Source: a virus
Length of the DNA: 31,658 nt
IMG/VR virus record: IMGVR_UViG_3300021977_000004
Location: 1 to 31,658 of that record
Reading direction: 5' to 3' (one strand)
The stretch's first letter is position 1. The number at the start of each line of letters is the position of its first letter. The notes under the pieces are model-generated. The model saw nothing but the letters and a program-made list of their open reading frames with translations. It had not been told where the DNA came from and made no database searches. A program made the translations under genes and the position numbers. This document shows, piece by piece, positions 956 to 31,306 of this stretch.

Positions 956-983
956 TTGACACAGAGAAGTTTTTGACTATAAT
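956..983 (+). promoter_or_regulatory. Rightward consensus sigma70 promoter
   Basis: A perfect TTGACA (956-961) and a perfect TATAAT (978-983) are separated by 16 bases, with expected initiation near 990. It is back to back with the leftward promoter (894-922). It points into a region with no credible coding sequence, which makes its product most likely an untranslated RNA. Confidence 0.8.
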
Positions 984-989
984 GATGGA

Positions 990-1430
990 AAGAAACAAAA
1001 AACCCCCGAAAGACTTAGAATCTGACGAGGGTCGAATTAGGTGAGTGAGCCACCTGTTAAAGATTATATCATATCTTTTCCATTTGGCAATTCACCGACC
1101 CGACAGGTGATATGTCTGACCAATTGGTTTCACTCACACCTGAATAAAAAAAAGAGATTCATCAAATGGGTATGCTGTTGATTGATGTTAGATTAAGTCG
1201 TTAGGTTAAATGTAGGACAAAGCATTTCCTTTCGTTACGAACTTACTAGGGTAATACCTGTACAGTGTTTTAAAATCTAGCGCAGAGTTACAGTGGGTGA
1301 GTACCAGTACATGGTAGCGATGAACTCTGAGTCACAAACGTAATAGTGTGACCATCCGATGAAGACTGCTTAGTGGCTTTATACGAATGTAAATCTCTCA
1401 AGGTTCTTAACTGAGCCTTGGGATTTCTTT
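990..1430 (+). ncRNA. Candidate structured noncoding RNA (~440 nt)
   Basis: The span between a consensus promoter and a terminator-like hairpin lacks ORFs longer than about a dozen codons. It is dense in inverted repeats. Stems seen are 1002-1008 with 1026-1032 (one mismatch), 1041-1048 with 1130-1137, 1051-1057 with 1103-1109, 1059-1064 with 1073-1078, 1189-1194 with 1274-1279, 1283-1289 with 1323-1329, 1302-1306 with 1312-1316, and 1331-1336 with 1347-1352. GGGTCG at 1029-1034 can also pair with CGACCC at 1096-1101, which would be a pseudoknot across the main helix. I recognise no known RNA family. It might instead be a long leader or a replication origin. Confidence 0.5.
1391..1430 (+). 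terminator. Terminator-like hairpin ending the candidate ncRNA
   Basis: AAATC plus TCAAGG (1391-1403, with a two-base bulge) pairs with CCTTGG plus GATTT (1416-1426), and TTCTTT-like bases follow. The U tract is short and broken by a C, so termination may be partial. It is the first strong stop signal downstream of the promoter at 956-983. Confidence 0.4.
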
Positions 1431-1490
1431 ACCCCGACTTCCCCAACTAGATAACTTAACCGAATATAACACTGACTTGCTCTTGCTCTT

Positions 1491-1509
1491 AAAAAGGGTA
1501 TTTATACCC
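1491..1509 (-). terminator. Hairpin with U5 tract, minus strand
   Basis: GGGTA (1496-1500), a TTTA loop and TACCC (1505-1509) form a perfect five-pair stem. Read leftward it is followed by five Ts (1495-1491), the form of a weak intrinsic terminator on the minus strand. No leftward gene is visible just to its right. It may block read-through from an unrecognised leftward start between 1510 and 1660, or simply insulate the region. Confidence 0.4.
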
Positions 1510-1607
1510 CAGAGCGAAGCGAGCCTTACCCAAGTATCTAAACGATTATTTACAAAGTAAATGATGTTTGAACAAACGAACGAAGTGGAGTGCGTAAGTT
1601 ATTACCA

Positions 1608-1660: not shown

Positions 1661-1879
1661 ATGCTTATAAAATATCATGACATCAACGCAGAAATCAGAA
1701 AGTGTGGTTTAACTAGAACTCAAGTAGCAGAAATCTTAGGTATCACCTATCAAGCACTACACATGAGAATTAAAAAGGACAAACCAGATATTCATTTGAT
1801 TATTTATGCCTTGAGTTCTTACTTCCAAGAGGTTAGTCTTAACCTTGAACAAAACAAAGAATACTTCAAGGAAAAATAA
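1661..1879 (+). CDS. Cro-like helix-turn-helix regulator
   Basis: The 72-residue protein has a helix-turn-helix at about residues 17-40 (LTRTQVAEILGITYQALHMR), the size and layout of small phage Cro/CI-type DNA-binding repressors. It begins at the first ATG after a TATAAT box, has no ribosome binding site and may be translated from a leaderless mRNA. A perfect 8+6+8 palindrome sits just upstream and is its likely operator. Its stop overlaps the next start (TAATG). There is no partner integrase or cI-sized gene, so it more likely times early and late expression than controls lysogeny. That role is inferred. Confidence 0.8.
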   Translation: MLIKYHDINAEIRKCGLTRTQVAEILGITYQALHMRIKKDKPDIHLIIYALSSYFQEVSLNLEQNKEYFKEK

Positions 1880-29215: not shown

Positions 29216-29393
29216 AAGATTATGTGAGATTAATTACAAATACATAATACCTTTCACAGTCGTATTCTTAATAACAAGCGCTAGTATGGCGTTCTTTGGT
29301 GATTGGATGAAACAAGGTATGTCTATGCCACAAAAAATGATGCAGATGACACAACCTCAACCACAAGCGTGTGACTGTAACTGTACTAAATAG
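29202..29393 (+). CDS. Small membrane protein with Cys-rich tail
   Basis: The probable start is TTG at 29202, preceded six bases upstream by GGAG (29192-29195); a TTG at 29178 is possible but lacks such a site. The 63-residue product has one membrane segment (YIIPFTVVFLITSASMAFFG), a Met/Gln/Pro-rich stretch and a C-terminal CDCNC. It overlaps the preceding gene by 14 bases and ends convergent with the leftward arm. It is possibly a spanin-type or second holin component, by inference. Confidence 0.55.
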   Translation: MLKLKRLCEINYKYIIPFTVVFLITSASMAFFGDWMKQGMSMPQKMMQMTQPQPQACDCNCTK

Positions 29394-29847
29394 TCTTTAA
29401 TAACAACCTGCTTAGAGGGTCAAAGTAGTTTCTTGTTTTCATAAGTTGTGAAACATTGTCTTGAGAATTAAGAAGAATAGTCTTTGCAGGCTTTAGCTTT
29501 CCTAGGTTGTGTTGCATTTTTTTATTGGGCATTGCTGTTAGTTTTTCAATATCGGTAACACCTGTTGATAGCCTATTCCTTATAGTGCTTAGAGGTATGC
29601 CGTATTGTGTAGCAATTTGTCTAGCCGTTTGTTGTGTGTTGTCAGACAACGTGTATGCCTTGCACTTGTAGGTGCGCTTACTTCTGCTACTGCCCACAAC
29701 CCTAAACACAGCTACGGGGTCTGAATACTTCTCTAGCCTACAACGTGCTGAAGGGTTTGACATGTGTAACTTGCGCGCTAATTCACTAGGCATTATGTTC
29801 ACACCATTATCTAGCGTATAGACCTTCTCTGTTCTGTTAGCCCCCAC
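29386..29847 (-). CDS. Two-repeat helix-turn-helix protein (153 aa)
   Basis: This is the last gene of the leftward arm. Two related units, residues 9-47 (VYTL...PSELARKLHMSNPSARCRLEK) and 64-103 (AYTL...TARQIATQYGIPLSTIRNRL), each carry a helix-turn-helix, so the protein arose by internal duplication and probably binds DNA. The GTG at 29847 follows the ssb stop by two bases. No good ribosome binding site is seen there, and an ATG at residue 19 is an alternative start. The stop overlaps the convergent late gene by 8 bases. The role may be regulatory or replicative. Confidence 0.7.
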   Translation of the reverse strand: MGANRTEKVYTLDNGVNIMPSELARKLHMSNPSARCRLEKYSDPVAVFRVVGSSRSKRTYKCKAYTLSDNTQQTARQIATQYGIPLSTIRNRLSTGVTDIEKLTAMPNKKMQHNLGKLKPAKTILLNSQDNVSQLMKTRNYFDPLSRLLLKTI

Positions 29848-30419: not shown

Positions 30420-31007
30420 TTACATTCCTTCTTTGTCGTCCATAGGTCTTAGACCCTCTTTTATTACAACCTGCTCTTGTCCATCAAACGCTTTCCAAAT
30501 ATCATTCTTTTGTCTTGAGGTTAATTCTCCCCACAACTGCTTAATGCCGTCAAAGTCAGATTCACCAACAACTTCTTTAATTGCGAGTACATATTCATCA
30601 CGCTCACCCTCTTCAAATACAGGGATGTCTGGTAAGTCTTCACCTGCGTAGATGTATAGTCCAAGTCCATGACGTGCAATGGCCTTCGTTAGAGAGCGCT
30701 GAATAGCCGTATTAGCGTTCATTGAGGTAATCTTATCTAATGGTATGGCTTTGTTGCTAAAGTCCAGCACAGGCAAATACTCGATGTGTTCAAGTCCTTC
30801 AATGGTTACACCTGTCTTAACCCAAGCTGTCTTGCCGTCATTATGATAAAAGCACTCATCTTTGTTCTCATAGATGGTGTAGGTTGATTCTGGGTAAGCC
30901 TTCTTTACTTCTGCCCAGGCCCAGGCCCAAGACAAGTAAGTAAACTTTCCTTTAGATTCAGCGTGGTCATTGACGTTGACCTTGTTTAGTGTCTTAAATA
31001 CGTTCAT
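30420..31007 (-). CDS. Single-strand annealing protein, Sak type (DUF1071)
   Basis: The 195-residue protein has the DUF1071/Sak signature: YLSWAWAWAEVKK (24-36), a long strand region, and MNANTAIQRSLTKAIARHGLGLYIYA (96-121). Sak of lactococcal phage ul36 is a RecT/Rad52-like recombinase that anneals complementary strands. It is the only recombinase seen and probably pairs with the SSB downstream. I chose ATG 31007 because it overlaps the upstream TGA (ATGA); a start at 31031 would lie inside the upstream gene. Confidence 0.9.
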   Translation of the reverse strand: MNVFKTLNKVNVNDHAESKGKFTYLSWAWAWAEVKKAYPESTYTIYENKDECFYHNDGKTAWVKTGVTIEGLEHIEYLPVLDFSNKAIPLDKITSMNANTAIQRSLTKAIARHGLGLYIYAGEDLPDIPVFEEGERDEYVLAIKEVVGESDFDGIKQLWGELTSRQKNDIWKAFDGQEQVVIKEGLRPMDDKEGM

Positions 31008-31306
31008 TTCGTACCCCAACTGAATAGGCATCTGCGCTTTGCAAGTTTAACAATCTCTGTCATTGCAGCGTGTTTAGTTATTCCCTTACTTTCGGCTACA
31101 CTTGAAACATAATCGTAATTATCCTTGCTCGCGTTAATACAGAAGTTCTTATCACCGATTGTTTTAACACCCTTGCCTTTCTTGACAATAGCTTTACAAA
31201 TTGTGGAGTAACCTCTTCCAACTAACCCTGATATGGTTTTGTTATCAACGCCTGCATCGTGAAGTGCGAAAATCTTATTTAGTTCTTGTTTTGTCATTTG
31301 TTTCAT
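31004..31306 (-). CDS. Helix-turn-helix early protein (100 aa)
   Basis: The N-terminal half (MTKQELNKIFALHDAGVDNKTISGLVGRGYSTICKAI) is a resolvase/homeodomain-like helix-turn-helix at about residues 5-40. The second half (NYDYVSSVAESKGITKHAAMTEIVKLAK) has the look of a ribbon-helix-helix dimerisation unit. It is preceded by a very strong AGGAGAGG site that overlaps the stop of the mini-ORF upstream. It may regulate the early arm or assist the Sak protein; neither is shown by the sequence. Confidence 0.7.
   Translation of the reverse strand: MKQMTKQELNKIFALHDAGVDNKTISGLVGRGYSTICKAIVKKGKGVKTIGDKNFCINASKDNYDYVSSVAESKGITKHAAMTEIVKLAKRRCLFSWGTK

Follow-up and report, generated by a model that had tools for sequence, protein, structure and literature searches.

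What occupies the approximately 820-base gap between the leftward and rightward operons of the phage considered here, and could it be the place where replication begins? The window analyzed is a 31,658-base virus record (IMG/VR IMGVR_UViG_3300021977_000004, positions 1-31,658) with a 149-base end repeat, and it represents a tailed phage. Its leftward early operon encodes SSB, a Sak annealing protein, and HTH proteins, and its rightward operon encodes HTH, VRR-type nuclease, HNH, NinB, terminase, and structural proteins. The gap holds a region that the original prediction read as an early promoter driving a structured noncoding RNA.

Several small leftward early genes of this phage, in which no replication proteins are recognized, are without clear family matches (86-409, 324-838, 29386-29847, and 31004-31306), one of them HTH_38-like and one with a sigma-70 region-4-like HTH. 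A short search for DnaA boxes returned none near the RNA region. The GC skew of the window turns near 1-1.5 kb, to which we give no weight because the turn fits an origin there and tracks gene orientation as well.

A conserved noncoding RNA in the early region

The perfect −35 and −10 hexamers claimed for 956-983 are present and rank at the top of the 20 promoter matches in 4 kb. The −10 is kept in near relatives; farther relatives carry weaker, TTGACC/TATGAT-type versions, and at least 10/12 matches are reached in only 26% of the family, the consensus form being special to the window and its near relatives. As predicted, the span 990-1430 contains no credible ORF, its longest frame being 46 aa, and none of the long frames is kept open in the relatives. 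The calculated fold of this strand has an energy of −123.5 kcal/mol (z = −3.8), and none of 100 dinucleotide shuffles folded as low.

Searches with TerL, with DNA patterns, and with a profile traced the RNA to about 118 loci on contigs of uncultured viruses in IMG/VR (115 parsed at X plus three unparsed, some of them overlapping views of the same contig). The relatives are metagenomic contigs throughout, often fragments, and 51 non-redundant sequences, each under 96% alike, were aligned. Among loci with a homologue of the HTH gene at 1661 together with a NinB or VRR homologue, the RNA was found in 106 of 111, and in the remaining five the contig leaves no more than 146 bases ahead of the HTH reading frame. 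The RNA occurs with two widely separated TerL lineages. Stems covary across the 51 relatives, strongly supporting the predicted functional structured RNA, and it is near certain that 990-1430 belongs to a genuine family of structured noncoding RNAs about 450-500 nt long. The functional unit probably extends beyond the hairpin first taken for its terminator, to about 1512.

The 1661 homologue lies 97-314 nt downstream of the RNA in nearly every RNA locus, and the HTH matches of the window protein score slightly below the Pfam cut-off. A near-consensus −10 (TATAAT, within 1647-1661) ends eight bases 5′ of its ATG, suggesting that the gene may be leaderless and transcribed from its own promoter.

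Comparison with Rfam assigned the RNA to no recognized family (tmRNA, GOLLD, ROOL, and others): for the window RNA and its relatives, the covariance models gave no match at the gathering threshold and none credible at a relaxed one. The PK-repBA model (E = 0.022) fell well short of its cut-off, and the searches of the relatives did not bring it up again. A tRNA/tmRNA search found none, and BLAST of the window and clade-2 RNAs against deposited phages and plasmids found nothing within the RNA itself. One pattern scan of bacterial genomes yielded three matches, all judged to be chance by the profile. Among deposited sequences, the nearest TerL is that of spring-water phages, and the RNA was also absent from the stretches of these phages that were examined.

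Table 1. Features of the candidate origin region, in window coordinates
Feature	Position	Strand	Evidence or remark
Sense promoter TTGACA-16-TATAAT	956..983	+	12/12 consensus match; predicted start near 990
Structured noncoding RNA body	990..1430	+	Homologues, covariation, fold z; probably runs on to about 1495
Intrinsic terminator CCCTCG..CGGGGGTTTTTT	995..1033	-	Fold -15.7 kcal/mol
Predicted ~62-nt antisense RNA, RNA I-like, two hairpins	995..1056	-	Promoter and terminator signals
Convergent antisense promoter TTGCCA-16-TG.TATAAT	1063..1090	-	11/12 match; predicted start near 1056
P1	1099-1102/1167-1170	+	Paired in all sequences with letters there; compensatory changes
P2; P2b	1104-1109/1137-1142; 1118-1121/1126-1129	+	Both enclosed by P1; compensatory changes
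P3	1158-1163/1296-1301	+	Long-range pseudoknot; 97% paired; 4/6 pairs doubly changed
P4, enclosing P5	1186-1194/1274-1282; 1241-1243/1264-1266	+	Compensatory changes; contains pair 1190-1278
P6; P6b; P7	1283-1288/1324-1329; 1302-1306/1312-1316; 1331-1335/1348-1352	+	
Kissing loop (loops of P6b and P7)	1308-1310/1340-1342	+	
X, RNA element, core CGAAT 1384-1388	1374..1391	+	Identity covariation with X′
P8 hairpin AAUCUC..GGGAUU and UUUCUUU	1392..1432	+	Originally read as the terminator; nearly invariant
X′, downstream direct repeat of X, core CGAAT 1461-1465	1453..1469	+	Proposed R-loop nucleation site
A-run 1491-1495 and hairpin GGGTATTTATACCC	1491..1512	-	Minus-strand terminator; proposed RNA-to-DNA transition zone
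72-aa helix-turn-helix gene	1661..1879	+	Starts early rightward operon; invariable downstream neighbor of RNA

Covariation defines a doubly pseudoknotted fold

An 11-helix model (alignment A2) left 97.7% of cells paired, with double changes at 40 of 58 pairs. It accumulated 364 compensatory (doubly changed) cells, compared with 88 ± 7.5 (sd) in shuffles and 21-50 in slid controls, controls that overstate the significance somewhat because the helices were picked on the same sequences. A covariation test with a tree-based null, which is independent of this model, placed 1190-1278, 1104-1142, 1283-1329, 1335-1348, 1105-1141, 1192-1276, 1160-1299, and 1499-1506 above or near the null maximum. The first of these is the strongest covarying pair overall, the two P2 pairs (1104-1142 and 1105-1141) lie beyond the null or only just short of it, and the P3 pair 1160-1299 has E = 0.25.

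Since P3 crosses both P1 and P6, the RNA is doubly pseudoknotted, and both pseudoknots covary. P6, P6b, P7, and the kissing loop are 96.6-100% paired with many compensatory types, natural kissing pairs including AUUACA/UGUAAU and AUCAUA/UAUGAU. Short-form RNAs (L113, L118, L119, L134, L141, and others) lack the P5 insert in P4, about 50-80 nt, which is thus dispensable.

The individual helices proposed from the window alone fared less well. The GGGTCG/CGACCC pseudoknot (1029-1034 with 1096-1101) exists in the window sequence but is not conserved (1030-1100 is 14% paired), 1099-1102 pairing instead within P1, and the helices nested over 1041-1137 are likewise not conserved across relatives. The terminator-like hairpin is present at 1396-1423, but chance alone would give 2.3 sites of this kind in 4 kb. 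Its interrupted T-run and nearly invariant sequence suggest a structural role for P8, and its AAUCUC arm (1392-1397) has alternative partners, GGGAUU in P8 or GAGAU at 1154-1158 (RNAalifold).

A predicted convergent antisense unit overlaps the RNA 5′ end

Convergent promoter and terminator signals lie on the minus strand across the start of the RNA (Table 1). The antisense −10 TATAAT is exact in 50 of the 51 aligned sequences, and the promoter as a whole matches at least 10/12 in 72.5% of sequences, versus 0.9% of shuffles. The hairpin and T-rich tail of the terminator are kept in the listed sequences despite sequence change. From these signals, an antisense RNA of about 62 nt is predicted, with a sequence complementary to the start of the noncoding RNA. 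Column identity is lower in the antisense region than in the core (0.62 versus 0.74).

One contig (L018:2407-2538, minus strand) retains nothing of the RNA but its 5′ promoter/antisense part, in inverted orientation; after it come a noncoding stretch of unrelated sequence and a gene of the HNH homing type. This arrangement suggests that the antisense module can recombine separately.

The RNA and a recognized replication initiator occur in different phages

The profile phrog_270 (phage replication initiation) was found in none of 27 RNA-bearing records and in all 10 RNA-lacking records whose early region is covered. The initiators of these 10 close relatives are O/DnaD-like, matching O-like and DnaD-like profiles, and phrog_678 agrees with the pattern in being absent from all RNA-bearing records searched. 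With a profile built in this analysis, no locus carried both the RNA and an initiator. Five RNA-lacking records are without an initiator: four are contigs that end before the region, and the fifth is L018. DnaB_C and DNA_pol_A were absent from every record searched.

In the TerL tree, the initiator-bearing phages form one group inside the RNA-bearing phages (support 86/92), indicating one replacement rather than many; as a single event on this tree, the swap may reflect shared descent. Early genes of RNA-bearing phages without an assigned function (86-838, 29386, and 31004) could hide an unrecognized initiator. In one sister phage with an initiator, the early operon also includes a gene resembling phosphoadenosine phosphosulfate reductase (L062:1477-2361).

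X and X′ change together

The RNA element X recurs downstream as the direct repeat X′, and the two evolve in step. Positions 1385 and 1386 of X, both variable columns, equal 1462 and 1463 of X′ in all 51 sequences, and 1377/1455 and 1390/1467 are identical in 92-94%. Of 82,621 column pairs, no more than nine reach such identity, and four of these form the X/X′ diagonal. Seven X core types occur, and in 65 of 66 unique loci the locus's own 5-mer is found no more than 75 bases downstream of the hairpin; foreign X types are mostly absent there, except CCGAA, which is part of a conserved neighboring motif. On a tree built without the X/X′ columns, X underwent 10 changes and X′ 11, coupled except in L083.

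The spacing from hairpin to X′ is near-constant (30-38 nt), and the match between X and X′ spans only about 14 nt, mismatches included. Because the two elements share identity rather than complementarity, X in the RNA could pair with the template strand at X′. X′ lies about 25 bases before the A-run, which is about 505 bases from the RNA start, and the hairpin beyond it is conserved with compensatory changes (pair 1499-1506).

Two other readings of these repeats must be weighed. In the first, which we consider unlikely, the RNA is an immunity or attenuation leader like P4 CI RNA or P1 c4: the antisense RNA would set termination at 1396-1423 and so control the 1661 operon, and X and X′ would be repeats paired by a third element. 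The antisense promoter over the leader, the hairpin with its T-rich tail, the mutually exclusive AAUCUC pairings, and the position of the RNA upstream of an HTH regulator and early operon all agree with such a device. However, the covariation test found no aligned column complementary to both X and X′, and the exact complement of the X core occurs in just 5 of 51 RNAs within the aligned region. The −10 before the 1661 ATG suggests, moreover, that the operon has its own promoter, the initiator of RNA-lacking relatives is left unexplained, and Rfam offers no match.

In the second reading, a single DNA- or RNA-binding protein recognizes both X and X′ as operators or iterons, and the role of the RNA is separate. 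Direct repeats at near-constant spacing that change together fit this account, but X sits within the conserved RNA fold and the 1661 HTH protein, the obvious candidate, does not track the X/X′ types, so that we regard it as quite improbable. As operators of that protein specifically, the repeats were rejected: it is identical in L124 (CGGAT) and L135 (CCGAT), and the window, L023, and L107 are all CGAAT with differing recognition helices. A trans-acting structured RNA unrelated to replication (packaging, host take-over, or protein scaffold, with X′ binding incidental) is very improbable: the RNA does adjoin the terminase operon, and large ornate phage RNAs without an assigned function are known, but its presence with two very different TerL lineages argues against packaging, and the initiator complementarity and X/X′ coupling would go unexplained.

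A candidate RNA-primed origin

The RNA family and its fold, the convergent signals, the X/X′ coupling, and the complementary occurrence of RNA and initiator gene give this locus each sequence-level counterpart of ColE1, and on that basis we propose a ColE1-like way of working. We think it probable, though well short of assured, that replication starts in this region from an RNA primer under antisense control, at an origin resembling ColE1 RNA II/RNA I in operation and unrelated to it in sequence; for want of sequence homology, we do not claim it as a ColE1-type member. We place at about even the broader proposal that it typifies a new origin family among phages: a pseudoknotted RNA under antisense control would steer its own R-loop to one particular DNA site through matched X/X′ pairing, and sister phages would have swapped this RNA and a protein initiator for one another.

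As read from the sequence, host RNA polymerase would transcribe a noncoding preprimer from about 990, which would fold into a knotted structure with two pseudoknots and a kissing loop, exposing X. Once the polymerase has passed X′, X would pair with the template strand there, anchoring the transcript to the DNA in an R-loop that persists. Host RNase H would then cleave downstream, probably near the A-run, leaving a primer for host DNA polymerase. The antisense RNA, running from 1056 back to about 995, would pair with the preprimer 5′ end and reduce the number of initiations, a form of copy control.

Several points count against the origin reading. The hairpin at 1396-1423 may end the RNA before X′, and why a lytic phage should have to control its copy number is not obvious. 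Many members have a weak sense promoter, and L018 keeps the inverted 5′ part only.

Comparison with known systems

RNA-primed, initiator-free origins are textbook plasmid devices, and the literature searched contains no report of one in a phage. ColE1 works without an initiator protein: its 550-nt RNA II forms a persistent hybrid from which RNase H leaves a Pol I primer, and RNA I, about 110 nt and complementary to the RNA II 5′ end, blocks priming (PMC5043065). Similarly, in the phage locus a putative origin is preceded by a noncoding RNA of about 500 nt, no initiator is recognized in the phage, and sequence signals predict a short convergent antisense RNA against the RNA 5′ end. Its RNA element matches the non-template strand near the presumed origin, with an A-run at the presumed transition; in ColE1, an upstream loop of RNA II reportedly contacts the template strand near the origin, as described by Masukata and Tomizawa in 1990. 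The predicted phage lengths are about 505 and 62 nt, versus about 550 and about 110 nt in ColE1. Unlike ColE1, the phage antisense RNA has two hairpins, the main RNA has pseudoknots and a kissing loop, and X is not G-rich. The unit is also phage-borne, sits in a divergent early-gene promoter region, and is without a sequence, Rfam, or plasmid match.

P4 CI RNA and P1 c4 resemble this locus in having an early leader that is noncoding and contains repeats, accompanied by a short RNA (here predicted). The phage RNA differs from them in structure, in having no complementary third element in the aligned region, and in lacking an Rfam match. Like GOLLD, ROOL, and OLE, a class of RNAs some of which are phage-borne, it is large, pseudoknotted, and known mainly through comparative genomics; unlike them, it has no Rfam match, and its predicted antisense partner and DNA-matching element suggest a function. 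It thus adds a new RNA of about 450-500 nt with a solvable fold.

If the origin reading is true, it would explain how phages without recognizable replication proteins begin copying, and the X/X′ covariation would be evolutionary evidence that the contact between RNA and template is selected. The lambda O-like and DnaD-like initiators of sister phages without the RNA occupy the same early rightward module and are proteins that load helicase at DNA sites, whereas the phages described here have an RNA in that place. This exchange of RNA for initiator between close relatives makes the proposed mechanism directly testable by swapping one for the other.
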